Of a stretch of 64,000 nt of DNA, positions 17,044 through 64,000 are shown piece by piece. Below the pieces are notes generated by a model, which was not told where the DNA came from, did not search any database, and saw nothing but the letters and a program-made list of their open reading frames with translations. Both the position numbers and the translations under genes were made by a program. The first letter of the stretch is position 1, and each line of letters begins with the position of its first letter. The stretch comes from Roseicyclus mahoneyensis (GTDB lineage: Bacteria; Pseudomonadota; Alphaproteobacteria; Rhodobacterales; Rhodobacteraceae): assembly GCF_003148775.1 (NCBI RefSeq), contig NZ_QGGW01000007.1, positions 124,001 through 188,000 of the forward strand. The letters run 5' to 3'.

Positions 17044-17928
17044 TCAGTCCTGTCGGGCCAGTTCCGCCATCACATGCGCACGGAGCGCCGTCTCGGGCGT
17101 CTCTGTGGCTTGCGCGACCATGCGGCGCAGCCGGTCAAGTCGTGGGGCCATCACCGGCGGATCGCCCGGACCCGGCGCATGGGCAAGGCTCAGAAGGTCC
17201 GGCCGGCCGGCCGTCTCGGCCACGATCCGGGCCAATGCGCCAAGGCTGCGGGGCTGGCCCGATCCGATGTCGCAAGGCCCTGACAGGGGGCTGTCCATGA
17301 GTGCAACCAGCAGGCGGGCGACATGCGGGGTGGAGGCGACATCGCGGATCAGCTCGGCCGCGCGCACCTCGGCCGGGCGTCCCGCGCGGCAGGCGGCGAT
17401 CAGACCGGGGATCAGGCGGCGCGGGTCCTCGTTCGGGCCGTAAAGATGGAACAGCCGCGCCCAGACAAGCGCATCGCCACAGATCGCGGCAAGTTCGGCA
17501 TGAAGCGCGGCCTTGGCCTGCCCGTAGGGGGTCGCGGGCGCGATGGCGCGTGCCTCGTCCCATGTGCCGGGGACCGCGGCGTCATATTCCGCGCAGGTGC
17601 CAAGTGCCACCACGCGCACCCCGCTCGCCGCCATGAAACGGCCCACCAGATCGGCGGAGGCCTCCCGCCAGAGCGCATTGGCCGGCGCCGTCCAGAAGGC
17701 GCCATGTTCCACCTCCCAGGCGCAATGGATCAGGCGCGGCGCAAGGCCCGCCACTTCGGCACGATCCTCCGCGACCAGCAGATCGGCGCGGTGCCATGTG
17801 ACGCCGGGCATCGGCGCGCCGGGGCGGCGGCTGACGGCATGGACGGGGATACGGGCCGCGCAAAGTGCGGCCAGAAGCTGTCGCCCGACAAACCCCGTCG
17901 CCCCGGTCAGAAGGACGGCGTCAGGCAT
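17044..17928 (-). CDS. NAD(P)-dependent nucleotide-sugar epimerase/reductase (SDR)
   Basis: A 294-residue extended short-chain dehydrogenase. The Rossmann motif TGATGFVGRQL opens the protein, HCAWEVEHGAFWTAP is the sugar-nucleotide SDR segment, and the catalytic YxxxK is YGQAK. LYGPNEDPRRLIPGLI follows, as in 4-ketoreductases and 4-epimerases of NDP-deoxysugars. It lies downstream of the rfbC, methyltransferase and rfbG relics and of intact rfbF on the same strand, so it was probably the last step (C4 reduction) of a CDP-deoxysugar pathway. A broken relative lies at 61404-61841. Start: ATG giving MPDAV. Confidence 0.83.
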   Translation of the reverse strand: MPDAVLLTGATGFVGRQLLAALCAARIPVHAVSRRPGAPMPGVTWHRADLLVAEDRAEVAGLAPRLIHCAWEVEHGAFWTAPANALWREASADLVGRFMAASGVRVVALGTCAEYDAAVPGTWDEARAIAPATPYGQAKAALHAELAAICGDALVWARLFHLYGPNEDPRRLIPGLIAACRAGRPAEVRAAELIRDVASTPHVARLLVALMDSPLSGPCDIGSGQPRSLGALARIVAETAGRPDLLSLAHAPGPGDPPVMAPRLDRLRRMVAQATETPETALRAHVMAELARQD

Positions 17929-18049
17929 GGGGCAGGTCCGGCCGGTTTCGGTCACGCTTTGAGATGGCGGCGGGGCGCGCGGGCCGACCGGTGTCGAGCG
18001 CGGACCCATCCCGGCACGCGTGCCGCCAGAGCCTGTGCCTGCAGCGAAA

Positions 18050-18319
18050 AGCGAGGCTTTCTGCGCGCAGGTCCACTGTCACGTCCCATATCGCGCCCGC
18101 AACACAGCGCAGTGGCTTGGCCCCGCGATGCGGTTCGGCCCGCCGGTGGAGGAGCCCGCGCAGGTTGGTCGAAAGGCTGGCCTGAGCCGAGGGGAAATCG
18201 AGCCCGATGGCGACAAGACCTTCGGCCCAACAGCCGTGGCGCGTGCCGCCCCTCGCGTCGATCTGCGCCAGACCTTCGACCTCCAAGACGCCGGGGATGT
18301 GGGTGTGGGCCAGCTGCAT
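18050..18319 (-). pseudogene. Relic of rfbC-like NDP-4-keto-deoxysugar 3,5-epimerase
   Basis: Reading the minus strand, about 90 residues match the N-terminal half of RfbC-type epimerases: MQLAHTHIPGVLEVEG, then DARG, STNLRGLLH (for GTxRGLH) and LRCVAGAIWDVTVDLR (for VRCxxGAIWDVxVDLRxxS). The second half of the family (about 180 residues in the intact gene at 63058-63606) is missing, and the conserved His lies in a damaged context. The N-terminus is closer to the common LPGV-type RfbC than to the intact copy in this window, so it is not a recent duplicate of that gene. Confidence 0.65.
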
Positions 18320-18379
18320 CCATGCCGCTCCATGCGGGACACCGCCGTCCGGGGTCCACCGGTCAAGATTCTCGCGACG

Positions 18380-18475
18380 CCCGAAGGCTCGATCCCGAGG
18401 CATGGGATGCCGGCCTTGCCGAAATTTCCAAGCAGGTGGCCGTCGTTCGAGGCCACCACGATCACGCGCGAACCC
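18380..18475 (-). pseudogene. Relic of sugar C-methyltransferase
   Basis: A short minus-strand stretch reads VIVVASNDGHLLGNFGKAG then IPCLGIEP. This is nearly the same as motif I of the intact methyltransferase at 61838-63061 (VVELASNDGYLLRNF, AGIPCLGIEP). It is in a different frame from the rfbG and rfbC relics on either side. The zinc-binding N-terminal Cys cluster and the C-terminal domain were not found, so only a fragment remains; faint similarity may extend upstream to about 18640. Confidence 0.65.
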
Positions 18476-18603
18476 GGCCCGGGCGACGGACAGGCGTTCG
18501 GCACCGGGTGCAGTCCCGGATCGCGCAAGCCCGCTGTCCACGGCGAGCTTCGGCGCCGCGGGCAGCAGCGTCTTGGCGGGGGCCTCGGCACGCAGTGCGC
18601 GGC

Positions 18604-18638
18604 CTGTGACCTCCTGCGAGAGGCGCAGGAGGTCACAG
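18604..18638. repeat. Perfect 15-base-stem inverted repeat inside the relic block
   Basis: CTGTGACCTCCTGCG and its exact reverse complement are separated by the five bases AGAGG. The hairpin lies between the rfbG and methyltransferase relics. There is no T run, so it is a poor terminator. A perfect palindrome in otherwise decayed DNA may mark a rearrangement junction. Confidence 0.7.
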
Positions 18639-18699
18639 ATCGACATCTTAGCTCCGACCGGGCCACGTTTGAGAGCTTCTTGGGTCAGTCCGGTGAGCC

Positions 18700-19225
18700 G
18701 ATCGTCGACAGGGATCGGGTGGTCCACGCCCGCGTCCAGCGCATGCTGGAACGCACGGGTCGCGCCCGGGTTGCGCAGGGCCGGCGACAGGCCAGCCGTC
18801 CCGGGGCGGCCCGGTCCGGGCGCGCGGTAAACCTTGTCGGAGGCGACGGTTAACGCCGCCGCGCACGGGCAGCGCAGGGCTTGCAAGACGGTCTTGGTGC
18901 GGGTGGGGTTGCTCGAACATCCGCGGACCGGGTCGCAGACCCCCTCGGACAAGGTTGCTTGGGCGGCCACGCGCAAGACAATGGCGTCACCGCTGGGGTC
19001 CACCCATACCTTCGCATCCGGGTGGGCAAGACCTGCGCGCAGGTCGGGCGAAAGCTCGCGTCCCGCGCACAACAGGTCATGGACGCCCTGTCCCGGCTTG
19101 TGGGCGAGCGGCTTGCCCGTCACCCGCGCCCTTTGTTCGACCAGCCGCCGCCCGGCCCAGGCTCCGTTGAACCCGGTGGTTCCGGTCAGAGGCCCGGCCC
19201 GGAAGGTACGCAGGGGACGGATCAC
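18700..19225 (-). pseudogene. rfbG: Relic of CDP-glucose 4,6-dehydratase
   Basis: Starting in overlap with the rfbF stop (GTGATC), the minus strand encodes recognisable RfbG pieces in order: GTTGFNGAW (degraded TGHTGFKGxW Rossmann motif), LVEQRARVTG, PGQGVHDLLCAGRELSPDLR, DAIVLRVAAQA, the ALTVASDKVY segment (TSDKxY), and then directly LRNPGATRAFQHALD, which matches the C-terminal NPGATRPWQHVLDP. Roughly 120 residues between the last two, including the catalytic YxxxK and the GNVIGGGDW region, are deleted. The frame stays open, but the nucleotide-binding glycines and catalytic residues are lost, so it cannot be functional. The C-terminal part of an intact copy is at 63603-64000. Confidence 0.72.
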
Positions 19226-19992
19226 CAGATCTTCCACGGTGCCTGCCCCCCGTCCCACAGCGCCTGGAGCGTATCGCGGTCACGCAGCGTGTCCATAGGT
19301 TGCCAAAAGCCGCGATGCTCCCACGACATCAACTGCCCGTCGCGGGCGAGCCCGCGCAGGGTGTCTTGTTCCAGCACGGTCGCATCCCCGGCGATCCGGT
19401 CCAGCACGGACGGCGACAGCACGAAGAACCCCCCGTTGATCAACCCTCCATCGCCGGCAGGTTTCTCGACGAAGGCTGTGACTTCATGGCCGTCTCGTTT
19501 CAGCGCGCCGAAGCGGCCGGGCGGCACCACGGCCGTCACCGTGGCCTCGCGGCCATGGGCGCGATGAAACGCGATGCTGCCGGCAATATCCACATCGCCC
19601 AGCCCGTCGCCATAGGTCAGGCAAAACGCCTCTTCGCGCTGCAACAGGTGGCCCACGCGCACCAGCCGGCCGCCGGTCTGCGTATCGTCTCCGGTGTCGA
19701 TCAGGGCCACGCGCCAAGGTTCGGCGGCGGGGCGCAGCACTTCGAACGTACTGGTGGCCACATCGACCACGATGTCGGACGACAGCCTCGCGTAGTTGAG
19801 AAAGAATTCCTTGATCTGCCAGCCGCGATAGCCAAGACAGATCACGAAATCGGTGATCCCGTGGGCCTGATAGAGCTTGAGGATATGCCACAAGATCGGC
19901 CGCCCGCCGATCTCGACCATGGGTTTGGGGCGCAGACCCGTTTCCTCGGACAGCCGTGTGCCGCGCCCGCCTGCAAGGATCACCGCTTTCAC
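19222..19992 (-). CDS. rfbF: Glucose-1-phosphate cytidylyltransferase
   Basis: A 256-residue nucleotidyltransferase that makes CDP-glucose from CTP and glucose 1-phosphate, the first step of CDP-deoxysugar pathways. MKAVILAGGRGTRLSEETGLRPKPMVEIG is the signature N-terminus, with GGRPILWHILKLY; FEVLRPAAEPWRVALIDTGDDTQTGGRL is the RfbF-specific region. MDTLRDRDTLQALW and the C-terminal PWKIW also match the family. Its start overlaps the upstream TPR glycosyltransferase by four bases, and the rfbG relic begins in its stop. It looks intact, so CDP-glucose can still be made, but the next enzyme must come from elsewhere. Confidence 0.93.
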   Translation of the reverse strand: MKAVILAGGRGTRLSEETGLRPKPMVEIGGRPILWHILKLYQAHGITDFVICLGYRGWQIKEFFLNYARLSSDIVVDVATSTFEVLRPAAEPWRVALIDTGDDTQTGGRLVRVGHLLQREEAFCLTYGDGLGDVDIAGSIAFHRAHGREATVTAVVPPGRFGALKRDGHEVTAFVEKPAGDGGLINGGFFVLSPSVLDRIAGDATVLEQDTLRGLARDGQLMSWEHRGFWQPMDTLRDRDTLQALWDGGQAPWKIW

Positions 19993-22280
19993 TCGGACGC
20001 CACCTTTCGTGCCAGACCGTAGAAATGCCGGGCGAAGCGGTCGGGCTGGCCCAGCGGGTTTGCCGCGATCTGCGCGCGCAACCCGTGGCGCAGCTGCAGT
20101 CGCCGGGCCGGATCAGCGGCAAGGTCCGCGGCGGCGGCAACGTAGTCCTCGGGGGTCGATGCAGCCAGATCACCCAAACCTGCATTCGTCAGGTTCGAGT
20201 AGGACAGCCGCTCGGGGAAACCGGGGCCCACGAGGGTGATGGTGGGCACGCCCATCCAAAGCGCCTCGCAGGTCGTGGTGCCGCCGACATGGGGCGCGGT
20301 ATCCAGCGCGATGTCGATCTCGTTGTAGTGGCGCATGTGATCGCCGCGCACGCCGATATAGTCCAGCCGGTCCGGGTCGACGTCGCGCCGCGCGAAGGCG
20401 GTGCGGGTGTTGGCGACAAAGCTCGGCGCACCCGCCTCGGGGCGCAGGAACACGAAGCGCGACCCCGGCACCGCGCGCAGAACCATGGCCCACAGGTCAA
20501 GACAGAACGGCGTATACTTGTAGGGATTGTTGGCGGTGCCGAAGGTGAGATGGCCCTTGCGCGCCTCGGGTGTGGCGTCGGTGATGGGGGTGGGCGCGAA
20601 CATGCGCGACAGCGCCACCCAGGTTTCGGGCATCGCGAAGGGCCGTTCGATCAGCAGGCGCGGATCGGCAGGGTGCAGCCAAGGGTCGGTCAAGATGAGA
20701 TCGATCCGCGACAGACCTGCCGAATGCGGATAGCCCAGCCAGCTCGCCCCGAGGCGCGCGGGACGATAGGCCATCACCTCGAGCTTGTTCATCGCCGTTG
20801 ATCCGCCCAGTTCGAACAGGATATCGAGCCCGTCCGCCGCGATGCCTTCGGCCACCTGTGGCGTGGGCCGGCCCGGCCAATGGCGAAAGGCGGTGACCTT
20901 GCTTGCGAGATGGGTCTGCACCTTGTCGGCGGGTTTCTCGCTGAAGGAATAGCAAAACACCTCGACCGCGTCGGGGTCGTAGCCTTCCAGCAGCGGCAGG
21001 GCGAAATAGGTCACCGGATGGTGGCGCAGGTCCGAGGACATGAAGCCAACGCGCAGCTTGCGCGCGCCATGGAGCGCCGGGGTCACAGGCGGCAGCGGCG
21101 TGATCGCCGCCTCGACCTTGCGTCCCCAGTCGCGGTGCCAGTCCACCAGTGCGATCCGGTCCTCGAGCGTGGTCACCTGCCCCAACTCGTAATGCACCGA
21201 GGAATGGCGCCCCTCGGCCAGCCAATGTGGCAGAAGGTCGGACAGATCGCCGGTGGCGGCCATCCGGTCCTCGTCCATTACCCGCATCAGCACCGTGCGC
21301 AGGGTCCGGGCGGCTGGAGGCAGCCGGTCGGGGAAACGCGCCATCATCTCGCAAGACAGGGTATAGGCCTGTTCGATATGGGCGGTCTCGTCGTCGTAGC
21401 GGCTGCGCACAAGGCTGTCGATCCGGCGGTCGAGCAACTCGAAGGAGGTCGGATCGCCCTCGGTGGCGCGTGCAAGTGCCGCATTCGCGCCCCGTCGATC
21501 CCCGTCGCCCAAGATATGCGCCAGAAGGAAATTCGCGTCGACATGGGTGCGGTTGCGCGCGATCACCCGCTCCAGCAAGGCCAGCGCGCGGGCGCGGTTG
21601 CCCCGGCGTGAGGCATGGCGGGCGACGGTGACGGTCAGGGCGTCATCGCCGGGGGCAGCCGCCAGCGCCGTTTCGAGGGTGTCATCAAGCTCGGCCGGGC
21701 GGCCCGCGCCATGCAATGCCTGCACCAAAAGCGCCAGCGCGCGGCGATCGGAGGGTGTGATCCGCAAGGCGGTGCGCAGGCTGCGCTCGGCCTCATTCCA
21801 ACGCTGCAGGGCCAGTTCCTCGGCCCCGAGCAGGCGCCAAAGCTCGGCAGATTTCGGCGCGATCCGCAGCGCCCCGCGATAGGTTTCGGCGGCGCGTGCA
21901 TGATCGCCCATCTGCGCCAGCACATTGCCCAGATTGTGCCACGGCGAGATGTCGGAGGGGCGCATCCGGCGCGCCTTTTCCAGCACCTCGGCCGACTTGG
22001 TCAGCCGCCCGGCCCGCTTGAGCAGCACACCCATCAGGTTCCAGACCGCGACATCCTTGCGGTTGCGTTCGAACCATGGGCGGTAGACGGCCACGGCTTC
22101 CTCCGCGCGGCCCAGTTCGGACAGCGCCAGCGCATGGCCCTGCGCCGTCAGTTTGGGCGATGCACCCGCCGCGCGCGCCCGCTCGAAGGCCGCGAGGGCG
22201 CGCGCGGCGTCGCCATCGCGTTGGGCGGCGGCCGCAGCGGCAAGCGCGAGGTCCGCTTCGGTCAGGCCGGGTCGAGTCAT
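19989..22280 (-). CDS. TPR protein with OGT-like (GT41) glycosyltransferase domain
   Basis: A 763-residue protein. The N-terminal part, to about 340, is a run of tetratricopeptide repeats (for example WNLMGVLLKRAGRLTKSAEVLEKA and WHNLGNVLAQMGDHARAAETYRGA). The rest is a GT41 domain as in O-GlcNAc transferase / SPINDLY proteins: LRVGFMSSDLRHHPV, ILFELGGSTAMNKLEVMAYRPA, TFGTANNPYKYTP, IDIALDTAPHVGGTTTCEALWMGVP, GDLAAST. It probably glycosylates a protein or surface structure. The ATG giving MTRPG is preferred; a GTG 22 codons upstream is possible, but its extra residues look non-coding. It is the first gene of the operon with rfbF. Confidence 0.85.
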   Translation of the reverse strand: MTRPGLTEADLALAAAAAAQRDGDAARALAAFERARAAGASPKLTAQGHALALSELGRAEEAVAVYRPWFERNRKDVAVWNLMGVLLKRAGRLTKSAEVLEKARRMRPSDISPWHNLGNVLAQMGDHARAAETYRGALRIAPKSAELWRLLGAEELALQRWNEAERSLRTALRITPSDRRALALLVQALHGAGRPAELDDTLETALAAAPGDDALTVTVARHASRRGNRARALALLERVIARNRTHVDANFLLAHILGDGDRRGANAALARATEGDPTSFELLDRRIDSLVRSRYDDETAHIEQAYTLSCEMMARFPDRLPPAARTLRTVLMRVMDEDRMAATGDLSDLLPHWLAEGRHSSVHYELGQVTTLEDRIALVDWHRDWGRKVEAAITPLPPVTPALHGARKLRVGFMSSDLRHHPVTYFALPLLEGYDPDAVEVFCYSFSEKPADKVQTHLASKVTAFRHWPGRPTPQVAEGIAADGLDILFELGGSTAMNKLEVMAYRPARLGASWLGYPHSAGLSRIDLILTDPWLHPADPRLLIERPFAMPETWVALSRMFAPTPITDATPEARKGHLTFGTANNPYKYTPFCLDLWAMVLRAVPGSRFVFLRPEAGAPSFVANTRTAFARRDVDPDRLDYIGVRGDHMRHYNEIDIALDTAPHVGGTTTCEALWMGVPTITLVGPGFPERLSYSNLTNAGLGDLAASTPEDYVAAAADLAADPARRLQLRHGLRAQIAANPLGQPDRFARHFYGLARKVASE

Positions 22281-22506
22281 CGCCGGCTCAAGACTCAGGC
22301 CAAAGTGCGATGGGTCCGACCCGCTGTCCTTGCCTGTCTGCGCCACCTCGCCGTGCCATCGCCTCAGTCCCTTTTTGCGGTTTCTCGAAGAACATACGGT
22401 CCTCTACCAGCCCTGCATCCGCGCACGCAGCATTTTTTTCCCGATGGGCAGGATGCAGGCCCGTGTCGGCACCGTATGCAAAAAGCAGACAAAAAGGCCC
22501 TGACCC

Positions 22507-23673
22507 ATGGCACTGACCGACCTTCCCCGTCACCCGGCAGCGGGCGACCCGGCACCCAGTTTCATCCAGCGCACACCGGTGACACCGCGATTTTCCTTTG
22601 ACAGCGCTGCGGGGCGCTATCTGGTGCTGTGCTTTCTCGGCAGCGGCTCGGACCCGCGCGCGCAGACCGTGTTCGAGACCGCCTTGGCCCGCCGGGACCT
22701 CTTCGACGACGAAAGGGCCTGCTTCTTTGCTGTCACGCAAGACCCGCAGGACGAAACGCTGGGCGTGATCGGCAACCGTCCCCCGGGCGTCCGGGTGTTT
22801 TGGGATTTCGACCTGTCGGTCGCCCGGCGCTATGGGGCCATCGACGCGGAGGCGGGGCCCTTCGGGGGCTGGCAGGCGGTTGCCCGATGCTGGGTCGTGA
22901 TCGACCCAACGATGCGGGTGATCGACCGCATCGCGTTTCGGGACGACGGGTCGGACACAGCCGAGGTGATGGCCCTACTGGAAGCGCTCCCACCGCCCGA
23001 CATGCACGCGGGCTTTGCCGTTCCGGCCCCCGTTCTGGTGCTGCCGCGGGTCTTCGAGCCGGAGCTTTGCCGACATCTGATCGCGCTTTATGACGCGCAA
23101 GGGGGCGTGGAGAGCGGCTTCATGCGGCAGATCGACGGGCGGACCGTGGGCGTGATGGACGCGGGCTTCAAGGTGCGCCGGGACATCACCTTGTCCGATG
23201 CGAGCCTGATTGCGGCGATCCAGACGCGGTTCATCCGCCGCGTGGTGCCCGAAATCGCAAAGGTCCACCAGTTCCACGTCACCAGAATGGAACGCTACAT
23301 CGTGTCGTGCTATGCGGCCGAGGACGGTGGACATTTCTCGGCCCATCGTGACAACACCACGGCGGGCACGGCACATCGCCGCTTTGCCGTTTCGGTCAAC
23401 CTGAACGCGGATTTCGAGGGCGGCGAGGTGAGTTTCCCCGAATACGGTCCCCGCGGCTTCAAGGCGCCACCCGGCGGGGCGGTGGTCTTTTCGTGCTCGC
23501 TGCTGCACCGGGTCAGCCGCGTGACGCAAGGGCGACGCTACGCCTTTTTGCCCTTTCTCTACGATGACGCCGCTGCCCGCATCCGGGAACGCAACGCGGG
23601 CCTTGTGGACGCGAGCGGTGCGACGGCTGCGTTCGATGCCCGGCAGAGCCCGGCCGGGGCGGACGCGAAATGA
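22507..23673 (+). CDS. Thioredoxin-fold / 2OG-Fe(II) oxygenase fusion protein
   Basis: A 388-residue two-domain protein. Residues about 5-165 resemble a peroxiredoxin/AhpC fold (GDPAPSF, RYLVLCFLGSG, FFAVTQDP) but lack the catalytic TxxC cysteine, as the active-site region reads FLGSGSDP. Residues about 175-350 are a 2-oxoglutarate/Fe(II) dioxygenase of the prolyl-hydroxylase type: iron ligands His280-x-Asp282 (HRD) and His334 (LLHRVS), and a 2OG-binding Arg at 343 or 344. ADFEGGEVSFPEYG is the typical core. The ATG of the following ECF sigma gene overlaps its stop. It may hydroxylate a protein; the substrate is unknown. Confidence 0.82.
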   Translation: MALTDLPRHPAAGDPAPSFIQRTPVTPRFSFDSAAGRYLVLCFLGSGSDPRAQTVFETALARRDLFDDERACFFAVTQDPQDETLGVIGNRPPGVRVFWDFDLSVARRYGAIDAEAGPFGGWQAVARCWVVIDPTMRVIDRIAFRDDGSDTAEVMALLEALPPPDMHAGFAVPAPVLVLPRVFEPELCRHLIALYDAQGGVESGFMRQIDGRTVGVMDAGFKVRRDITLSDASLIAAIQTRFIRRVVPEIAKVHQFHVTRMERYIVSCYAAEDGGHFSAHRDNTTAGTAHRRFAVSVNLNADFEGGEVSFPEYGPRGFKAPPGGAVVFSCSLLHRVSRVTQGRRYAFLPFLYDDAAARIRERNAGLVDASGATAAFDARQSPAGADAK

Positions 23674-24206
23674 GCGGTGCTGCGCGGCTCGACGTGACCG
23701 CGCATCTGGAGGCACTGCGCCGCTATGCCCGCGTGCTGACGCGCAATGGCAGCGAAGCTGACGATCTGGTGCAAGGCGCCCTTTTGCGGGCGTTGGAAAA
23801 GCGGGCGAGTTTTCGGGACGGCGCGGATCTGCGGGTCTGGCTGATGTCGATCTTGCATAACCACCATATCGACCGCCTGCGCAGCACCAGCGCGGCAACC
23901 GCGCGCGAGACCGCATGGGCCGACCTTGCGCCGGGTTTCGCGCCTCCCGCGGGCGAGCATGCGGTAAGGCTGGAGCAATTGCGCGCCGCCGTCCTGACCC
24001 TGCCCGAGGATCAGCGCGAGGCGCTGCATCTGGTCGCCATCGAGGGGCTTTCGGTGGCCGAGGCGGCGGATGTCCTGTCGGTGCCCCCGGGCACCGTCAT
24101 GTCGCGCGTGGGACGGGCAAGGGCCGCGCTACGGCGTTGGGAAGATGGCGGTACAGCGCGGCTTTCGAGCATCAGACTTGTGGGAGGTGCGGATGACGCG
24201 ACCTGA
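23670..24206 (+). CDS. ECF RNA polymerase sigma factor
   Basis: A 178-residue extracytoplasmic-function sigma factor. Region 2 contains LRRYARVLTRNGSEADDLVQGALLRAL and VWLMSILHNHHIDRLR; region 4 reads LTLPEDQREALHLVAIEGLSVAEAADVL followed by the DNA-binding helix VPPGTVMSRVGRARAALR. It directs RNA polymerase to a stress regulon. It overlaps both neighbours, by four bases with the oxygenase gene upstream and 14 bases with the anti-sigma gene downstream, so all three are probably made together. No target promoter was identified. Confidence 0.92.
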   Translation: MSGAARLDVTAHLEALRRYARVLTRNGSEADDLVQGALLRALEKRASFRDGADLRVWLMSILHNHHIDRLRSTSAATARETAWADLAPGFAPPAGEHAVRLEQLRAAVLTLPEDQREALHLVAIEGLSVAEAADVLSVPPGTVMSRVGRARAALRRWEDGGTARLSSIRLVGGADDAT

Positions 24207-24957
24207 AGACGGCATCACCGAAACCGAACTCGATGCCTTCCTGACCGGCCAGCTCGAGGCCGGGCGGCGTTTTGCCGTCGCCGACCATCTGGCGCGCCAC
24301 CCCGATCTGGCAGCGCGCGCGATGTCGGACCTGCGCCTGCGCGAAGGTCTGCATCTGGTGCTTTCACAAGTGGATGGGCCGCCACCGCCCGCTTTGCGGC
24401 AGGCCGCCGACACCTTGGCGCGCGGGCTCGTGCGGCCGCCCCGATGGCCTTTGCGTGCTGCCGCCGCTGCCGCGCTGATCGCGTTGGGCTGGGCGAGTGA
24501 GGCGCTGTGGTCGGGCTTTCAGGAAATGCGCACTATGGCGGAACTGCGTCCCTTGGCCGAGACGGCGCTCGATGCACGCGACGCCGTGGAACTGCGCCGG
24601 TCGTTGGCCTTGACCACGGTGCAGGTCGACGCCGCGCAGATTGCCGAGCGGCTGGGGCTAGATCTGCCGACGCTGCCCACCGAGTGGCAGGTGCGCGATG
24701 TTCAGGTGGTGGCGACCCCACAGGCGCCGGGCCTTGCCCTGGTGATCGACACCCCTGACATGGGCGAGGTCATGCTGCTCAGCTTTCTTCAAAACGATGG
24801 CGGAAGGATCAGCCCGCTCAGGGCCTTCGATCACCGGGGAAGCGCTGTTGCCGTCTTCGAACATGGTCCCACGGCCTTCGTCTTGCTGGATGCCAGTGCA
24901 GGTGTCCGCGCCGAGGTCTCGCGTGAGGCCGAGCGCTTGCTCAGTCGCATGAACTGA
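24193..24957 (+). CDS. Membrane-anchored anti-sigma factor
   Basis: A 254-residue protein with a ChrR/RsgI-like plan. The cytoplasmic N-terminal domain (ITETELDAFLTGQLEAGRRFAVADHLARHPDL) is the usual anti-sigma segment, there is one membrane helix near 95-110 (LRAAAAAALIALGWAS), and a periplasmic domain of about 140 residues follows. It should hold the preceding ECF sigma factor inactive until an envelope signal is sensed. A ribosome binding site (GGGAGGTG) lies inside the sigma gene. No zinc-binding HxxxCxxC motif is visible, so it is not a ZAS-type anti-sigma factor. Confidence 0.85.
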   Translation: MTRPEDGITETELDAFLTGQLEAGRRFAVADHLARHPDLAARAMSDLRLREGLHLVLSQVDGPPPPALRQAADTLARGLVRPPRWPLRAAAAAALIALGWASEALWSGFQEMRTMAELRPLAETALDARDAVELRRSLALTTVQVDAAQIAERLGLDLPTLPTEWQVRDVQVVATPQAPGLALVIDTPDMGEVMLLSFLQNDGGRISPLRAFDHRGSAVAVFEHGPTAFVLLDASAGVRAEVSREAERLLSRMN

Positions 24958-24958
24958 C

Positions 24959-24983
24959 GGCCGCAACGACGCGGCTTGCGGCC
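24959..24983. terminator. Hairpin between convergent genes
   Basis: GGCCGCAA / TTGCGGCC, an eight-base stem with a nine-base loop, followed by TTTCGGG on the plus strand. It probably ends the sigma/anti-sigma transcript. Confidence 0.5.
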
Positions 24984-24998
24984 TTTCGGGCAAGGTGG

Positions 24999-26231: not shown

Positions 26232-26235
26232 GGCG

Positions 26236-26595: not shown

Positions 26596-26608
26596 CGATT
26601 GGTCCCCT

Positions 26609-32971: not shown

Positions 32972-35263
32972 TCACACCACCTGCCCCCGCAAATCCACCC
33001 CCTCGGCCACACCCGTCACCTCCACGATCCCGAGGCCGAGCCTCAAGCGCCAGACGCCGCCGCCCAACTCCTGCACCTCAGGCGCCCCCGGCCAGCCGGA
33101 CAGGTCATAGACCGCGCGCGCGTCCCAGCCCTCGATCACGCAGACGCCGCCCCAGCGGATGCGGTAGCGCTTGGCGCCGGGGGCGGCCTCGATCCGCGTG
33201 ACGCCCGTGCCGACGAAGATCTCGTGGTCGCCCTCGGCCAGCCGGACCAGATTGCGGCCCGGGCCGGGGTCGATGGTGGAGGCGCCGGTCCCATCCTCGA
33301 TCACGTCATTGCCGTGGCCGCCCCAGATGCGGTTGCTGTTGGTGTGGCCGAAGATCACGTCATCGCCCGTGCCGCCGTCGAGCGTGTCGCGCCCCGGGCC
33401 GCCATGGAGCGTGTCGTTGCCCGCCTCGCCATAGAAGGCGTGGCGGCGGTTGGCCTGTTTGGCTTTCGCGATCAGCAGGTCGTTGCCCGCGCCGCCGTAG
33501 AAGGTGGCCGCCCCGTGTTTGGGGCCGATCATCACGTCGTCGCCGTCACTGCCCCGCAGGTCGATCTCGACCCGTTCGGAGGTCTCGAACTCGATCGGGC
33601 TGTCGGGGTGGGCGACGATGCGGATCACCTTGCCGGTCTGGCCATCGGCCTCGGCCCGGCTGACGACGGTGGCGATGCGGATCTTTTCGACATTGGCGGG
33701 GAGGTGCAGGACGTAATCGTCGGGCCCGGCCATGTACCACAGCGTGTCGGTGCCGCCGTCACGCTCCTCGACGATCTTTTCGGCGTCGGCGCCGTAGGCC
33801 CAGTAGTCGGTGTCTCCGCGCCCGCCCGCAAGGATGACGGAGCCGTCGACGGCCATCATGGCGTTGACGCCATCGGCGGGGTTCTCATGCCCGCGCAGGT
33901 CGAGGCCGAGGTTGAGCGCGCCCTTGACGAGGTCCGCGCGGAGCTGGGCAAGGGGGGCGGTGGCGGCGATGTTCGTGGTCTCGCCGGGGTCGTTGGCGAG
34001 GTCGTAGACGTGTTCCTCGCCATTGGGGTAGCGGAAGTAGCGGTAGTGGGTGAGGCCCTCGGTCGAGGGGCGGACGGACAGCGTGCCGAAGACGCAGGTG
34101 ACCGGCGACCATTGGCGGTCGTAGGTGCCGAAGGAGGGGTCGATCAGCGGCAGCAGCGATTGGCCCGAGGTCCAGTCGGGGCGGGGCGGCAGGCCCGCGA
34201 TATCCATGATCGTCTTGGGGATGTTGTGGAGCGAGACGGGGAGGGGGATTTCCTGTTCGGCGGTCATGGACGGGTGGCGGATGCCCAAGGGGATATGGGC
34301 GGCGCTGTCCCATTGCGACATCTTGTGGAAGCTGTCGTGGGTGCCGAGGTTGAAGCCGTTGTCGGAGAAGAAGATGGTCGTGGTGTCAGGTCCGAGCGGC
34401 GAGGCGTCGAGCGCGGCGAGGAAGCGGCCAAGCTCGTGATCCATGTGCGAGATGGCGGCGAAATAGGCGCGCACGACCTGTCGCCATGCCTCGTCGCCCG
34501 CTTTCTCGGGGGTCCATTGGCCGTTGGCGATATAGGCGGCCTCGTAGACGGCGAAACCGGGTTGGGGGCCGTGGTAGTCGTCGGCATGCGCGATGGAGGG
34601 CCAGCGGATCTGGGCCGGGTCGTATTGGGCGTAGAAGCGGTCGGGCGTGATCAGGTTGTAATGCGGGTGCTTGAAGCCAAGCTGGATCAGGTGGCGGCGG
34701 TTCGGGTCGGCGCGCGTGACGAAGTCGATGGCGTTCTGGGCGACGCGGTGGTCGTAGAAGCGGTCGTCTTGCGACCCGTCGTCATCGGGGTGGTTGACGC
34801 CTTTGATGCCGGGGCCGTGGGCGAGATAGGTTTTCACGCCGGCGCGCTTGCCGATGTCATCGGCGGCCGGTTCCTCATGGAAGAGGATGCGGCGGTAGGC
34901 TTCGGGCATGGGCTGGTAGTTGCTGTCGACCTTGCCGGTGGTGAAGGTGTGCCAGCCCGCGCGGCGGAGGTCGTATTGCCACGCTTTTTCTGGCCGGTAG
35001 ACGTCGCGCCAGAAGCGGTTGAGATCGACCAGACCCGAGCGGAAGGGGCTGATGCCGGTCGCCACCTCGGCGCGGCAGGGCGCGCAGAGCGGCACGGTGG
35101 CATAGGCGTTGGTGAAGCGGGCGGCCTGCCCCATGAAGCGGTCGAGGTTCGGGGTCTGGATCGGCAAGCCAAAGGCGTCGCGCCACGTGTAGACGTCGAT
35201 CAGGTCGTCGACCCAGATCACCACGATATGGCCGCCGCCGAGGCTGTCCCGGGTGAAGGTCAT
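32972..35263 (-). CDS. Secreted sulfatase with C-terminal RTX repeats
   Basis: A 763-residue fusion. Residues about 12-480 are an alkaline-phosphatase-fold sulfatase: metal ligands Asp19-Asp20, the formylglycine motif CAPCR (Cys60-x-Pro-x-Arg64), TGKVDSNYQPMP, and FFSDNGFNLGTHDSFHK. Residues about 571-660 hold GGxGxDxxx RTX calcium-binding repeats (GGAGNDLLI, GEAGNDTLH, GGPGRDTLD, GGTGDDVIF, GGHGNDVIE). There is no N-terminal signal peptide, so type I secretion is likely. It would release sulfate from an external polysaccharide or glycan once Cys60 is converted to formylglycine; the maturation enzyme and the exporter are not in the window. Its start overlaps the upstream gene by four bases. 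Confidence 0.88.
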   Translation of the reverse strand: MTFTRDSLGGGHIVVIWVDDLIDVYTWRDAFGLPIQTPNLDRFMGQAARFTNAYATVPLCAPCRAEVATGISPFRSGLVDLNRFWRDVYRPEKAWQYDLRRAGWHTFTTGKVDSNYQPMPEAYRRILFHEEPAADDIGKRAGVKTYLAHGPGIKGVNHPDDDGSQDDRFYDHRVAQNAIDFVTRADPNRRHLIQLGFKHPHYNLITPDRFYAQYDPAQIRWPSIAHADDYHGPQPGFAVYEAAYIANGQWTPEKAGDEAWRQVVRAYFAAISHMDHELGRFLAALDASPLGPDTTTIFFSDNGFNLGTHDSFHKMSQWDSAAHIPLGIRHPSMTAEQEIPLPVSLHNIPKTIMDIAGLPPRPDWTSGQSLLPLIDPSFGTYDRQWSPVTCVFGTLSVRPSTEGLTHYRYFRYPNGEEHVYDLANDPGETTNIAATAPLAQLRADLVKGALNLGLDLRGHENPADGVNAMMAVDGSVILAGGRGDTDYWAYGADAEKIVEERDGGTDTLWYMAGPDDYVLHLPANVEKIRIATVVSRAEADGQTGKVIRIVAHPDSPIEFETSERVEIDLRGSDGDDVMIGPKHGAATFYGGAGNDLLIAKAKQANRRHAFYGEAGNDTLHGGPGRDTLDGGTGDDVIFGHTNSNRIWGGHGNDVIEDGTGASTIDPGPGRNLVRLAEGDHEIFVGTGVTRIEAAPGAKRYRIRWGGVCVIEGWDARAVYDLSGWPGAPEVQELGGGVWRLRLGLGIVEVTGVAEGVDLRGQVV

Positions 35264-55877: not shown

Positions 55878-56135
55878 TCGCGTTGCCCCTCTGAACGGCT
55901 GACGTCAACGGAGTGGCGAAAGCGCCGATGGCAAGCAGCGTCCCGACACCGATGCGATGGTGTTCCGGCTCGCTTGTCCCGTGTCACCGGTGGCCGACTG
56001 GTCGAGAGCGTGTTCACGGGGCGCGTTGAACCTGCATGGTCCTTGACAGTTTCGGGCAGGCGGCCGGCACCGGGCTTTCCGTTTACGCGGCGATTGCCTC
56101 TTGCTAAGACCGTCCTTCTAGGCGGGGTTGAACTG

Positions 56136-57853: not shown

Positions 57854-57860
57854 GCGGGCG

Positions 57861-59572: not shown

Positions 59573-59581
59573 GTCCCGCCC

Positions 59582-60352
59582 TCAGCCCTTGCGCCGCAGG
59601 TAGCCATCGGGCGCGACGGAGACCAGCAGTTTGGCATCCATGCTGCGGTCGATCTCGAAATCGGGGTTCCCGGGCAGCCAGTGATGCACGGCCGTCTTGG
59701 GATTGTCGCCCGGCCCCCAAGGGCGATCACCCGCCATCTCTGCCGGCAGATCCTCGACCACGGTGTCGAAAACGATGCAATAGCAACCCGGGGTGACAAG
59801 CTCGGCATAGGCCTCAAGCTCGGCCAGAACGTGATCATGGGTATGATTGCTGTCGAGGCAGACCATCACCCGCCCGGCGCCTTCGGCGCGCGCGCGGACC
59901 TGCGCCACGATGTCGGGCGCTATGGCGGAGCCTTCGATCATCTCGATGCGGCTTGCCATGGGATGTGCCTCGATCGCGGCGCGGTTATGGGGCCGGATGT
60001 CGATGTCGATGCCCAGAACCTTGCGGCGCGGCTGGCGCGGGTCGATCACCCCGCCTGCCTCGGCGGCATCGCAGTAGTCCAGCATCGCCAGAAGCGAGGC
60101 CGACAAGATCAGCGATCCACCATGGGCGATGCCCGTTTCGATGATCAGGTCGGGGCGCGTGGCCCAGACGATTTCCTGCAACGCGACCATGTCTTGCGGA
60201 TACTGGATGATCGGCCGTCCAGCCCAAAAGAAGTTGTAGGAATACTGCGCCGGGATCGTCGCCTCGGCAAAGGCCTGACCGGCCGCGCGCAGGCCCTTGT
60301 CGGTCTGGGCCGCGGCAAGGCGGTCGGCCACCTCTTTTTCGAAAGGTGTCAT
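59582..60352 (-). CDS. CmcI-like cephalosporin hydroxylase family protein (sugar O-methyltransferase-like)
   Basis: A 256-residue protein of the CmcI / rhamnosyl O-methyltransferase family (class I SAM fold). FWAGRPIIQYPQDM, the SAM motif LIIETGIAHGGSLIL, LGIDIDIRPHNRAAIE and the metal-ligand region VCLDSNHTHDHVLAELEAYAELV are typical. In polysaccharide clusters such genes usually O-methylate a sugar. Its start overlaps the stop of the preceding methyltransferase gene (ATGA). Confidence 0.85.
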   Translation of the reverse strand: MTPFEKEVADRLAAAQTDKGLRAAGQAFAEATIPAQYSYNFFWAGRPIIQYPQDMVALQEIVWATRPDLIIETGIAHGGSLILSASLLAMLDYCDAAEAGGVIDPRQPRRKVLGIDIDIRPHNRAAIEAHPMASRIEMIEGSAIAPDIVAQVRARAEGAGRVMVCLDSNHTHDHVLAELEAYAELVTPGCYCIVFDTVVEDLPAEMAGDRPWGPGDNPKTAVHHWLPGNPDFEIDRSMDAKLLVSVAPDGYLRRKG

Positions 60353-61407
60353 GCGCTCACTCCCACATAGGTAAAGGCGTTGCCCGTCATCTGGCGGATC
60401 TCGTCGAGATAATTGGGGTTCATCACAAGGATCGTCGCCCCGGGTTCGATACCGCGCAGCCCCTCGTCGGGGGACAGCACGCGCAGGCCCGTCGCGGGCA
60501 GGTAGCGCCCCTGTTTGGCCGGGTTGATGTCGATCACCCTGCCCACGGGACGGCCCGCGCGTTCCCGCAAAAGCGAAAAGATCACGCCTTTGGAGGCGCC
60601 GCCCCAGACGATATCGTCAGGGCCACCCGTCTCGGTCTGGGCCTTCAGGCGTGCGGTGATGTCGTCGGGGAAGCGGACCGTGTCGCCGGCGTCGCGGCGT
60701 GGTGTGCGCAGGGTCGACAGATCGGCGACCACCCGAAGGTATTGCCCACCAAAGGCCCGGTCGGCATGCACCACACGCGCGAAGATCCGGTTGAAGTCCG
60801 TCAGCCGGAAGTAGTTCACATGCTCGAAGAAGATGTCGAACCAGGATTTGTGGGTGCAGATCCAGTCGAGGCAGGGCACCTCGATATAGATGAGGCCGCG
60901 TCCACCGTTCGCCTCGGCCAATTTGCGCAGGAACGCAACAGGGTCGGGGATGTGTTCCAGCACATGTCGCAAGATCAGCCCCTCGCCGCGCAGCCCGAGG
61001 CCGGGACTGAAATAGGCGCGCTTCACCAGCGGGCTGTCGCCCTCGTAGGTAGGATCGAAGCCGGTCACCTTTGCGCCCCGGTCCGATAGCAGTTCCAGAA
61101 AGGTGCCCTTGCCGCAGCCAACCTCGATCAGCCCGGTGCGTCCCATCTTGTCTTCGACCAGATCGGCCACGGCGTCCATATGTGCCCTGAACTGCGGCGA
61201 GCCGGCCTGTTCGTTTTGGTAGGCGGCGTCGTAATCGACAAACTCCGGGTTGAAGGCCGCGTTGTGCACCAGCCCCGTTTCCAGATCCTCGACCAACCGC
61301 ATGTCGCCCTTGGGGCAATCGCGCCCCTCGGCTGCGCTGTCATACATCCGGTTCTGGAAAACGGGCAGCGCGTCCTGTGCATACAACAGACGGGTCTGAG
61401 GTGTCAT
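60349..61407 (-). CDS. Class I SAM-dependent methyltransferase
   Basis: A 352-residue methyltransferase with motif I LIEVGCGKGTFLELLSDRG, FDPTYEGDSPLVKRAYF, ILRHVLEHIPDPVAFLRKLAE (the DxxEH-type motif) and a C-terminal Rossmann-like domain (DDIVWGGASKGVIFSLL, GRVIDINPAKQGRYLPATG). This two-domain layout is that of the sugar C-methyltransferases, but it lacks their N-terminal zinc cysteines. It overlaps both the relic upstream (ATGA) and the CmcI-like gene downstream. Probable substrate: a nucleotide sugar or glycan. Confidence 0.85.
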   Translation of the reverse strand: MTPQTRLLYAQDALPVFQNRMYDSAAEGRDCPKGDMRLVEDLETGLVHNAAFNPEFVDYDAAYQNEQAGSPQFRAHMDAVADLVEDKMGRTGLIEVGCGKGTFLELLSDRGAKVTGFDPTYEGDSPLVKRAYFSPGLGLRGEGLILRHVLEHIPDPVAFLRKLAEANGGRGLIYIEVPCLDWICTHKSWFDIFFEHVNYFRLTDFNRIFARVVHADRAFGGQYLRVVADLSTLRTPRRDAGDTVRFPDDITARLKAQTETGGPDDIVWGGASKGVIFSLLRERAGRPVGRVIDINPAKQGRYLPATGLRVLSPDEGLRGIEPGATILVMNPNYLDEIRQMTGNAFTYVGVSA

Positions 61408-61841
61408 GTTCTCTCCTCATCGGCGGGCAGGCAGGCGGGTATGCCCAGCTCGTGACCGGTCGCCACCAAAGTGTCGCCCCGCACCCCGAACCGCCACATG
61501 TCGCGCCGCGCGTATCCCTGCGCGATCCGTTTCGCAAGCTGGCGCGTGGCGATCAAGACGCCCGTGCGGACATTCGCCACGCCTTGGTCCGGCCTGATCA
61601 TGCCCGTCCGGCAGTCACTGCTGCGGGGCGAGGTCAGACAGGCGCCGGGGCGCGCGCGCCATGTGCCATGGATCACCTTGGCGATACCGGTGCAGGCCGC
61701 CTGCCGCCTGCCCATGCCTTCGGTCAGCGCATCGGGCCTATGCCGAGCCAGGCATATCGCCCGACCATGACGGGCGGGATCGGCCAGAACCGGCCTCACG
61801 ACGAAACCTGTCACCGCGGTCGGAAAGACCCGGTCCGTCAT
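61404..61841 (-). pseudogene. Relic of a nucleotide-sugar SDR (epimerase/reductase)
   Basis: The frame keeps ATGA overlaps with both neighbours, as an intact operon gene would, but encodes only 145 residues. Its N-terminus MTDRVFPTAVTGFVVRPVLAD is a damaged MTxxVFxTGATGFVGRxVLA Rossmann motif. CLARHRPDAL and VIHGTWRARPGACLTSP match the next SDR segments (compare HCAWEVEHGAFWTAP in the gene at 17044-17928). The catalytic YxxxK region and most of the C-terminal half are absent, and the glycine motif is broken, so it is read as an internally deleted pseudogene. A short unrelated protein is the alternative. Confidence 0.62.
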
Positions 61842-63061
61842 CTCACTCGCAACTCCGGCACTGCGGTCACGAAGCGCGTGCCTGAGGCGCGCAGCGGATC
61901 AAGCTGGGCCATCACCTCCTCGGCGATGTTCCAAGGCAAGATCAAGACGTAATCCGGCGCGGCCGCGCTCAACGCGGCGGGCGCAAGGATCGGGATACGC
62001 GAGCCGGGCAGGAACTTGCCCTGCTTGGCCGTTGCCGCATCGCACACGAAGTTGAGCAGGTCGGGTCGCACGCCGGCGAAATTCAAAAGCGTGTTGCCCT
62101 TGGCCGCCGCGCCGTAGCCCGCCACCGTCTTGCCGTCGGCGCGTGCCTTGAGCAAGAACCGCAACAGGTCGTCCTTGATCGTCTCGGCCCTGGTCTGGAA
62201 CCCGCGGTAGAAGTCATCCCCCGCCATGCCGCGGGCGCGTTCCTCGGCCAAAAGCGCGGCCACTGCCCCACGTTCGACATGTGGCGCGCCGTCGAGACAG
62301 CCCCAGACGCGCAGGCTTCCGCCATGTGTCGGGATCTGCTCGACATCGAAAATTCGCAGACCGGCCTTGGCAAGGATGCGCGCGACGCTGAGCAGCGAGA
62401 GATAGGAAAAATGCTCGTGATAGACGGTGTCGAACTGACCGTGTTCCACCAGTTCCATCAGATGCGGAAATTCCAGCGTGACAACGCCTTCGGGCTTCAG
62501 CAGTGCCGCGATCCCCGCCGTGAAATCATTGATGTCGGGGACATGGGCAAAGACATTGTTGCCTGCGATCAGGTCGGCCTGCCGCCCCTCGGCGGCCAGT
62601 CGCGCGCCCACGGCCTCACCGAAGAATTCCTGCAGCACGGGGATGCCGAGCGCCTCGGCCGCCACGGCGGTGCTGTTGGTCGGTTCAATCCCCAGACAGG
62701 GGATGCCCGCTTCGACGAAATTGCGCAGAAGATAACCATCATTGCTCGCCAGTTCGACGACATGCGAGGCGGGCCCAAGCGCCAGCCGGTCGATCACCAT
62801 CGCGGCATAGCGCGCGGCATGGGCGAGCCAGCCCTTGGAGGTCGAGGAAAAATAGGCGTAATCATCGCTGAACAGAGCGTCCGCCGTTGTGAAATCCTCT
62901 GTCTGGACCAGTCGGCAGGTGCCGCAAACGAACAGCCGCAAGGGATAATGCACCTCGGGCGCGCGCAATGCGTCGCGCGTCATGTAGGCGTTGGAGGGTG
63001 GGGCCGCACCCAGATCCAGAAAGACGTCTCTGAGCGGAGCCTGACAATGGCGGCAGTTCAT
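61838..63061 (-). CDS. Nucleotide-sugar C-methyltransferase (TylCIII/NovU-like)
   Basis: A 407-residue sugar C-methyltransferase. The N-terminal zinc-binding cysteines are in MNCRHCQAPL and FVCGTCRLVQ. LGAAPPSNAYMT, the SAM motif VVELASNDGYLLRNF, GIEPTNSTAVAAEALGIP and NNVFAHVPDINDF are signature segments; GGSLRVWG and VAGYGAAAKGNTLLNFAG form the C-terminal domain. It would add a methyl branch, typically at C3 of a 4-keto-6-deoxysugar nucleotide. It overlaps rfbC by four bases. Confidence 0.92.
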   Translation of the reverse strand: MNCRHCQAPLRDVFLDLGAAPPSNAYMTRDALRAPEVHYPLRLFVCGTCRLVQTEDFTTADALFSDDYAYFSSTSKGWLAHAARYAAMVIDRLALGPASHVVELASNDGYLLRNFVEAGIPCLGIEPTNSTAVAAEALGIPVLQEFFGEAVGARLAAEGRQADLIAGNNVFAHVPDINDFTAGIAALLKPEGVVTLEFPHLMELVEHGQFDTVYHEHFSYLSLLSVARILAKAGLRIFDVEQIPTHGGSLRVWGCLDGAPHVERGAVAALLAEERARGMAGDDFYRGFQTRAETIKDDLLRFLLKARADGKTVAGYGAAAKGNTLLNFAGVRPDLLNFVCDAATAKQGKFLPGSRIPILAPAALSAAAPDYVLILPWNIAEEVMAQLDPLRASGTRFVTAVPELRVR

Positions 63062-63606
63062 GTTGCAAGAGGCTCCAGGTCGTGCAGCCGGGGCAGGGCA
63101 GCGTCCCGGGGCGAAAGATTTGCGACGGGCAAGGCCCAGTCGATGCCGAGTTCGGGATCGTCATGGGCGACGCCGCCTTCGTGAGCAGGGCTGTAGGCCG
63201 CCCCATGCAGGTACAACAACTCCGTATCGGGCAACAGTGTCTGGAACCCGTGAGCAAACCCCGGCGGCACATAGACCATGTCGCGGTTTTCTGCGGTCAG
63301 GTCCACAGCTTCCCATTGACCGAATTGCGGCGAGCGGGCGCGAAGGTCGACGATCACGTCCCGGATCGCGCCGCGCAGACACCGCACCACCTTGCTGTCC
63401 GCGGCCGGTGGCCGCTGGAAATGAAGCCCCCGCACCGTCCCCGCCGCGCGGCTGAAGGAGGTGTTGATCTGTGCGATTTCGGGCAGAAGCCCCTGCGCAC
63501 GGAACTCCTCGGTGCAAAAGAACCGTGCAAAGAACCCGCGCGTGTCCTCCCTCGGGTTCAGCGCGATGCGGAACGCGCCATGCAGCTTGAGCGGGTGAAA
63601 GATCAT
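63058..63606 (-). CDS. rfbC: NDP-4-keto-6-deoxysugar 3,5-epimerase (RfbC-like)
   Basis: A 182-residue cupin epimerase of the RmlC/RfbC family. NPREDTRGFFARFFCTEEF, QINTSFSRAAGTVRGLHFQ (with the catalytic His), KVVRCLRGAIRDVIVDLRARSP and MVYVPPGFAHGFQTL are intact. In this cluster it probably acts on CDP-6-deoxy-4-keto-glucose rather than on a dTDP sugar, because the adjacent dehydratase is of the RfbG type. ATGA overlaps on both sides show an operon. Confidence 0.92.
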   Translation of the reverse strand: MIFHPLKLHGAFRIALNPREDTRGFFARFFCTEEFRAQGLLPEIAQINTSFSRAAGTVRGLHFQRPPAADSKVVRCLRGAIRDVIVDLRARSPQFGQWEAVDLTAENRDMVYVPPGFAHGFQTLLPDTELLYLHGAAYSPAHEGGVAHDDPELGIDWALPVANLSPRDAALPRLHDLEPLAT

Positions 63607-64000
63607 CTGTCCGACGCCTCGAAGGCTGTGATCTGGGCATCGGTCAGCGCCACAGGGTCGGCGCCTTCATGAAGGCCGCGATACCATTCGATGCTGCGGG
63701 CCACCGCATCCTCGAGACCCCAGCGCGGGGCCCAGCCCAGCGTGGCGCGGGCCAGTTCGATCGACAGGGCCAGTTGCCCGGCCTCGTGCGGGGCGTCAGG
63801 GTCGGAGGCGTCGTGCCATGTGCCGGGCCAATGCCGAAGCGCGATCTCGACCAGTCGCCGGACGGGCGCCAGATCGGTCAATGCAGGGCCGAAATTGACG
63901 GCGTCAGGCACGGGGGTATCGGCCAGCATGCGTTCGGCCATGGTCATGTAGCCTGCCAGCGGGTCCAGCACATGCTGCCACGGCCGGATCGCGGCCGGGT
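63603..64000 (-). CDS. rfbG: CDP-glucose 4,6-dehydratase, C-terminal part (gene continues beyond window)
   Basis: About 132 C-terminal residues of RfbG. RPWQHVLDPLAGYM at the edge and NFGPALTD, PHEAGQLALSIELARATLGWAPRW and LTDAQITAFEA match the end of CDP-glucose 4,6-dehydratases. The frame is open to the window edge, so the gene is 5'-truncated by the edge and not by mutation. It makes CDP-4-keto-6-deoxyglucose from the product of RfbF. Its own rfbF may lie beyond the edge. Confidence 0.88.
   Translation of the reverse strand, partial: PAAIRPWQHVLDPLAGYMTMAERMLADTPVPDAVNFGPALTDLAPVRRLVEIALRHWPGTWHDASDPDAPHEAGQLALSIELARATLGWAPRWGLEDAVARSIEWYRGLHEGADPVALTDAQITAFEASDR

Follow-up and report, generated by a model that had tools for sequence, protein, structure and literature searches.

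Pathways to C-methylated deoxysugars of antibiotics, such as mycarose and tetronitrose, combine a 4,6-dehydratase, a 3-C-methyltransferase of the MtmC/TcaB9 type, an RmlC-like epimerase, and a 4-ketoreductase. CDP-vinelose (CDP, cytidine diphosphate) of Azotobacter vinelandii carries 6-deoxy-3-C-methyl-2-O-methyl-L-talose, and the rfbF and rfbG genes of the Salmonella and Yersinia O antigens start the pathways to CDP-3,6-dideoxyhexoses. Here we describe two CDP-deoxysugar loci, A and B, in a 64,000-nucleotide stretch of Roseicyclus mahoneyensis DNA (the window; part of contig C7 of a 4.03-Mb assembly with 32 contigs that is 99.99% complete). Both loci have lost genes, and one full gene set is left between them, as a first-pass annotation of the window had proposed. 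We think it probable that the core of locus B and the reductase of locus A now form a hybrid pathway to a CDP-3-C-methyl-6-deoxysugar, and that this pathway arose by reciprocal loss after two operons met.

Two operons of separate origin and their relics

The genes and relics of the two loci are listed below, where SDR denotes a short-chain dehydrogenase/reductase and CMT a C-methyltransferase. The E-values for relics are from tblastn searches with intact relatives' proteins against the short stretches alone, without composition correction.

Locus A
19989..22346, minus strand: GT41, a TPR/GT41 glycosyltransferase and first gene of the A operon (Pfam Glyco_transf_41; same position in intact A loci)
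19222..19992, minus strand: rfbF_A, intact glucose-1-phosphate cytidylyltransferase (TIGR02623, 408.4 bits; cut-off, 300.25)
17921..19225, minus strand: relic tract A, 434 codons in a single stop-free frame that opens at the former rfbG start and closes at the former rfbC stop
18518..19225, minus strand: rfbG relic, N-terminal part and some of the C-terminal half (A-type RfbG, E down to 9.5e-25)
18382..18480, minus strand: CMT relic, 33 aligned residues that are 79% identical to the CMT of locus L023 (E 1.7e-13)
17921..18319, minus strand: A-subtype rfbC relic that retains the N-terminal half and the final ~37 codons (E 5.8e-23; Pfam dTDP_sugar_isom, 38 bits)
17044..17928, minus strand: SDR_A, intact NAD-dependent epimerase/dehydratase-family reductase, proposed 4-ketoreductase (Pfam Epimerase, 81.7 bits)

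Locus B
64649-65416, minus strand, beyond the window edge: rfbF_B, intact (TIGR02623, 451.5 bits)
63603-64667, minus strand (63603..64000 in the window): RfbG_B, complete CDP-glucose 4,6-dehydratase (TIGR02622, 435.5 bits; cut-off, 278.45)
63058..63606, minus strand: RfbC_B, intact RmlC-like epimerase (Pfam dTDP_sugar_isom, 201 bits)
61838..63061, minus strand: CMT_B, intact predicted sugar 3-C-methyltransferase (Methyltransf_13 zinc domain and Methyltransf_14 C-terminal domain)
61404..61841, minus strand: SDR_B relic, a stop-free stretch of 145 codons bounded on each side by ATGA (intact SDR of locus L017, E 3.3e-11)
60349..61407, minus strand: MT2_B, methyltransferase (Methyltransf_23; same position in 8 of 10 SDR-bearing B loci)
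59582..60352, minus strand: MT3_B, sugar O-methyltransferase of the RMNT_CmcI family (PF04989, 309.5 bits)

The first-pass annotation had read locus A as an intact rfbF and SDR with relics of rfbG, a CMT, and rfbC, and locus B as rfbG, rfbC, and a CMT with a broken SDR relic between ATGA junctions. The matches and junctions listed above bear out both descriptions. B's own proteins, searched against the longer contig and the collected loci, also match the A relics (E of 7e-7 for RfbG, 2e-9 for CMT, and 3e-4 for RfbC). Chance similarity was rejected, as for each of the four genes the observed score was not reached in any of 500 dinucleotide-shuffled versions of the tract.

With A-type proteins as queries, the relic pieces in tract A are ordered G-CMT-C, as in the A operon. 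Approximately 60-70 codons are gone between the two parts of the rfbG relic, which share a frame, and the relic reaches only 38.3 bits with TIGR02622. The rfbC relic has lost ~41 codons from its middle with its frame unchanged, and the CMT relic lies in a frame that differs from that of the other two. The SDR_B relic retains residues ~1-111 (gapped) and ~231-277 of an intact SDR in one frame, and matches no Pfam family apart from a weak unrelated one. We rejected the possibility that the relic frames encode a working enzyme, given that large parts are gone, including the YxxxK region of both RfbG and SDR_B. SDR_A carries both the Rossmann glycine motif (TGATGFVG) and YxxxK (as YGQAK), the two motifs with established roles in SDR enzymes, and both are altered or missing in the SDR_B relic.

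Intact relatives indicate where each locus came from. The A operon has the order GT41-rfbF-rfbG-CMT-rfbC-SDR, and eight distinct loci carry it intact (L018, L019, L023 of Gemmobacter serpentinus, L025 of G. caeni, L026, L027, L029, and L081). Here L023 is counted although the start of its GT41 frame is not clear, L024 (Fuscovulum blasticum) is the same stretch as L019 and is counted once, and L028, a metagenome-assembled genome whose rfbF is split in two and whose rfbG and CMT genes are short, was left out of the reference set. The B operon has the order rfbF-rfbG-rfbC-CMT-SDR-MT2-MT3; its first five genes occur in this order in ten loci, with MT2 next in eight. The closest B locus, L067, shares 76-85% identity across the six B genes that were compared. 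In trees of SDR, CMT, and RfbC, the window copies nest in the A or B clades as expected.

The relics themselves can also be assigned by scoring under equal settings. The best A-type protein gives 81.6 bits with the rfbC relic and the best B-type protein 47.8 (8 A-type and 11 B-type RfbC proteins), so this relic is nearer to a different RfbC subtype than to that of the intact gene, as first suspected. The corresponding values are 94.4 and 50.8 bits for the rfbG relic, and the SDR_B relic scores 66.6 bits with B-type and 39.7 with A-type SDRs. Because the A and B orders are fixed and different and the window genes in the trees group within either the A or the B clade, the sequences indicate two different CDP-deoxysugar operons of separate origin. 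A single duplication with subsequent subfunctionalisation would explain why both loci use the same enzyme families. However, the gene orders differ (A, G-CMT-C-SDR; B, G-C-CMT-SDR), RfbF_A and RfbF_B are 58% identical, and each copy is nearest to different relatives. Gene order, trees, and relic scores led us to reject one duplication, which we regard as scarcely credible; the first-pass view of separate acquisitions is thereby upheld.

SDR_A is confined to the host among 13 genomes of the genus; the one other match, at 37% in G007, is the SDR of that genome's own B locus. We did not find B beside A elsewhere, as each of the nine A-type genomes searched, including that of L028, has a single CMT match, with the 50-53% identity to CMT_B that is typical of A-type CMTs. 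An empty site for locus A was likewise not found in the genus: the left-flank gene is present in G008 at 87% but has other neighbours there, and for the right-flank gene the only match is at 41%, in G011.

Several genes adjoin these loci. Next to GT41, positions 22507-24957 hold a 2OG-Fe (2-oxoglutarate and iron) oxygenase gene, a gene resembling an ECF (extracytoplasmic function) sigma factor by eye, and one further gene. This block also adjoins GT41 in L018, L025, L027, L028, and, in part, L026; it is oriented opposite to GT41 in the window and in the same direction in those A loci. Upstream of rfbF_B is a relic of a flavohaemoglobin-like FAD/NAD reductase on the minus strand (L002:3933-4651, ~65932-66650 by extrapolation), beside a LysR-like relic piece on the plus strand (L002:4661-4777).

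Depth of decay and a candidate hybrid pathway

Decay was measured with protein-guided codon alignments, as global DNA alignment was unreliable beyond the first blocks. Of the residues that are invariant in intact references, 60/96 are kept in the RfbG relic, 32/55 in the RfbC relic, and 25/44 in the SDR_B relic, a depth that corresponds in simulation to ~0.23-0.30 neutral substitutions per site. The A relics (92/151) and the B relic (25/44) do not differ (Fisher p 0.73). Therefore, the losses in A and B look about equally old, with a wide margin given that the B relic contributes 44 residues. The RfbG relic differs from references by an average of 0.39, 0.39, and 0.55 at codon positions 1 to 3; when the best reference is set against the others, the differences are 0.20, 0.19, and 0.46. 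The resulting excess (~0.19, 0.20, and 0.09) is equal at positions 1 and 2, which is the pattern expected without protein constraint.

The surviving genes present a different picture. SDR_A keeps 90/96 residues that are invariant in its eight intact relatives, which is inside the reference range, and the five B proteins tested keep 0.966-0.985. These values bear on a second explanation, in which both loci are being lost through a general loss of surface-sugar genes and SDR_A and RfbF_A are intact by chance. A precedent exists in Rhodobacter capsulatus SB 1003, which has lost its A locus except for a remnant on plasmid pRCB133 (L096:8085-9864), and the flavohaemoglobin-like relic to the right of rfbF_B is another decayed gene nearby. 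In the plasmid remnant, rfbF is intact, 58 RfbG residues remain (81% identical to L018 and L019), and the RfbG start is joined out of frame to an SDR that lacks its start and glycine motif. The annotated 88-aa hypothetical protein there is the rfbG start, the annotated SDR lacks the N-terminal glycine motif, and GT41 is reduced to a C-terminal part of ~250-290 residues. Thus, in this single case, decay also reached the SDR, which it has not done in the window. Here, the relics adjoining SDR_A have lost ~40% of their conserved residues and SDR_A only 6/96 (p 2.5e-9), and the B genes retain nearly all of theirs, which makes general loss a very improbable account.

In the pathway that we favor, two CDP-deoxysugar operons would have joined in one genome, and redundant steps would have been lost from both at approximately the same time, with A losing rfbG, CMT, and rfbC and B losing its SDR. 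RfbF would produce CDP-glucose, which RfbG_B, the only RfbG in the genome above the TIGR02622 cut-off, would convert to CDP-4-keto-6-deoxyglucose. CMT_B would then place a methyl group onto C3; its top PDB match is the D-mycarose 3-C-methyltransferase 4rv9 (E 1.5e-81), and it also matches 5t64 (sugar 3-C-methyl transferase) and TcaB9. RfbC_B, which falls below the equivalog cut-off for the dTDP-4-dehydrorhamnose 3,5-epimerase RmlC (TIGR01221, 148.8 versus 155.75 bits), would epimerise the intermediate, probably at C5. A C3 that bears a methyl group has no exchangeable hydrogen, and therefore, by reasoning from known chemistry, an epimerase that acts later could alter only C5. We infer that SDR_A, encoded ~44 kb away in locus A, would reduce the C4 ketone instead of SDR_B. 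Methylation by MT2_B and MT3_B would then yield a CDP-6-deoxyhexose that is branched and O-methylated and destined for a surface glycan, and the expected product class is an O-methylated CDP-6-deoxy-3-C-methylhexose.

Two observations bear on the assignment of the C4 step. First, in 17 B-like loci, CMT is followed by an SDR (10 loci), by a DegT aminotransferase (6), or by neither (1); all six aminotransferases belong to DegT/DnrJ/EryC1/StrS (Pfam, 401-419 bits). In deoxysugar pathways, a C4 ketone is usually either reduced or aminated. Since an SDR and an aminotransferase both fit this ketone, the slot after CMT most likely encodes the C4 step. Second, at E < 1e-5, the only intact SDR_B homologue in the host genome is SDR_A (43% identity, E 6e-39), and the other two matches are relic pieces. 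We therefore rejected a second SDR_B copy elsewhere in the genome.

The first-pass annotation had proposed complementary decay, which an intact rfbF and SDR to the right of the window edge would have contradicted. The rfbF is present, so that a B locus without this gene is rejected, but the whole-genome search gave no intact homologue of the lost SDR other than SDR_A. The proposal thus holds in one direction, as the A SDR would supply what B lost, and the two loci are not evenly complementary. Because rfbF is duplicated in A and B, the sole unique contribution of A is its SDR.

A third explanation involves no hybrid. SDR_A and RfbF_A would be kept for a separate function (e.g., with GT41), B would use another, unrecognised reductase or yield a 4-keto sugar, and the complementary pattern would be a coincidence. 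In L020 and L033, an SDR_A-like gene does lie beside GT41 without CDP-sugar genes in the stretch seen. However, the genome of L020 (G280) also has rfbF-rfbG-CMT-rfbC together on another contig (C38, locus L104; the SDR_A-like gene is on C1), and neither SDR_A nor the L017 SDR has a match in the 17 kb of C38 that were read. This arrangement also fits a reductase that acts in trans. We view G280 as a natural parallel for a reductase unlinked from its core and, judging from its genes, a possible second in-trans case. The lack of any other SDR_B homologue in the host at E 1e-5 and the similar depth of loss in A and B also speak against an absence of hybrid function, which we consider unlikely.

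Several points weigh against a hybrid pathway. SDR_A and intact SDR_B proteins are 37-43% identical and fall in different clades, and because of this distance their stereochemistry may differ, such that the product may be a C4 epimer or SDR_A may serve another purpose. RfbF_A is retained despite an intact rfbF_B, for which complementation gives no reason; both this redundancy and the SDR distance favor the explanation without a hybrid. RfbF_A also keeps 154/166 invariant residues (0.928), below its eight relatives (0.960-0.994), and it may be slightly loosening or lie on a longer branch. Reductases unlike SDR_B elsewhere in the genome could perform the C4 step. The two loci were found together in one genome only, with no replicate, and completeness is stated (>90%) for 3 of the 9 A-type genomes used to seek another and is not given for six. 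Finally, the CMT relic is uninformative on type (55.1 bits for A and 54.7 for B), and the codon-position excess is uneven in the RfbC (0.17, 0.09, and 0.07) and SDR_B (0.07, 0.16, and 0.01) relics.

Stop-free frames through the relics

An unexpected feature is that each relic tract has one frame free of stop codons, although the proteins have decayed. Tract A extends over 1305 nt between the former rfbG GTG and the former rfbC stop and has 0 internal stops in that frame, whereas the other two forward frames contain 6 and 7; this open frame crosses the CMT piece outside CMT's own frame. The SDR_B relic (438 nt) likewise has 0 stops versus 8 and 3. Each relic frame spans from the stop of the upstream neighbour to the start of the downstream neighbour, and the borders are original. 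Those of A are a GTGA overlap with the rfbF stop and an 8-nt overlap between the rfbC stop and the SDR_A start, as in 8/8 intact A loci, and those of B are the ATGA junctions at both ends of the SDR_B relic.

We simulated neutral decay from the codons of intact relatives, with substitutions only (no indels) and six parameter settings. For the three aligned relics together, 4.8-6.3 stops are expected and 0 are observed; zero stops arose in 0.2-0.9% of simulated runs (P 0.002-0.009 over the six settings), compared to 7-28% for a single relic. In plain shuffles, the probability of a stop-free frame is 0.003 for A and 0.07 for B. The large deletions in the RfbG, RfbC, and SDR_B relics keep the frame, and all six multi-codon deletions that are absent from references are in frame (~0.0014 under random lengths), with the alignments having been made on the open frame. 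Only the pieces located by frame-free tblastn are independent of that choice: the RfbG and SDR_B pieces that flank large deletions share one frame, and one RfbC match crosses its deletion in a single frame.

These sequence patterns fit, at modest significance, selection that would hold the relic frames open. SDR_A has no clear Shine-Dalgarno-like site (-3.2 in the window and -1.6 to -3.3 in seven intact loci; random mean, -2.8), and MT2_B has one (-7.2). Given the 8-nt stop/start overlap and the lack of a clear ribosome-binding site, SDR_A is plausibly started by ribosomes that terminate at the old rfbC stop. Published work supports this mechanism in general: reinitiation is possible without a Shine-Dalgarno site, although removal of the site lowered efficiency in 4 of 5 Escherichia coli pairs (PMC6728339), and operon genes that go untranslated give rise to Rho polarity (PMC12548453). 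A tentative and still doubtful reading is therefore that the relic tracts are translated conduits. Their protein would be free to decay, and start, stop, frame, and freedom from stops would be selected so that ribosomes pass to SDR_A (with less need for MT2_B) and guard against Rho termination. The dead genes would then be ribosome-delivery spacers in a hybrid pathway built from two operons. The flavohaemoglobin-like relic, the one other relic checked, has two pieces in different frames and is a single contrasting case.

Two observations count against such conduits. Sites that are equally weak precede RfbF_B (-3.6) and RfbG_B (-3.2), out of 12 starts scored across the window and its right flank, and a weak site alone is no proof that SDR_A depends on upstream translation. 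In addition, one frame on the reverse strand of the B relic is free of stops as well, and open frames are common in GC-rich DNA. Because of this, and because one genome and modest P values are involved, frame selection is suggested rather than proven.

Neighbouring genes and comparison with known systems

Other features of the region and of the collected loci are as follows. Positions 32972-35950 encode a large sulfatase with a match to RTX calcium-binding repeats. Two adjacent genes to the right of the window (L002:9447-11405, 71446-73404 by extrapolation) resemble class A beta-lactamase-type proteins by eye. When ten open reading frames from two other gene-poor stretches were compared with Pfam, only a metallophosphatase and a DUF488 gene exceeded the cut-offs. 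On a Peteryoungia desertarenae plasmid (L097:1-8330), two divergent CDP-sugar sets (rfbF, rfbG, rfbC, and methyltransferase) are adjacent, one of them followed by a DegT aminotransferase.

The two loci of R. mahoneyensis are an apparent natural case in which reciprocal loss fused two foreign operons of overlapping function into a single pathway. The step exchanged would be the C4 reduction, which decides the product. If the relic frames are selected, they would also offer a measure of how far an operon gene is constrained for its protein and how far for delivering ribosomes to the next gene.

The proposed pathway resembles those for mycarose and tetronitrose in its four kinds of enzyme. It differs in that activation is with CDP rather than dTDP, as RfbF and RfbG exceed the CDP family cut-offs, and in that no 2,3-deoxygenation gene was noted in the window operon. 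The first two enzymes are like those of the CDP-3,6-dideoxyhexose pathways, but the branch in the window is by C-methylation and theirs by C3 deoxygenation. CDP-vinelose, as a CDP-linked 6-deoxyhexose with 3-C-methyl and O-methyl groups, belongs to a class that could be produced by the B operon, given its RMNT_CmcI methyltransferase, and we offer it as a lead only.

The relic borders resemble published gene pairs coupled by termination and reinitiation, which have similar stop/start overlaps (PMC6728339 and PMC12548453, in their passages on coupled pairs). In contrast, the upstream member here is a dead gene, a case that those passages do not treat, and the term pseudogene is absent from the main text of the 2025 review (PMC12548453). 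Thus, the enzyme families involved are all known, and the unusual aspects are reciprocal loss to a similar depth and stop-free relics between live, overlapping genes.

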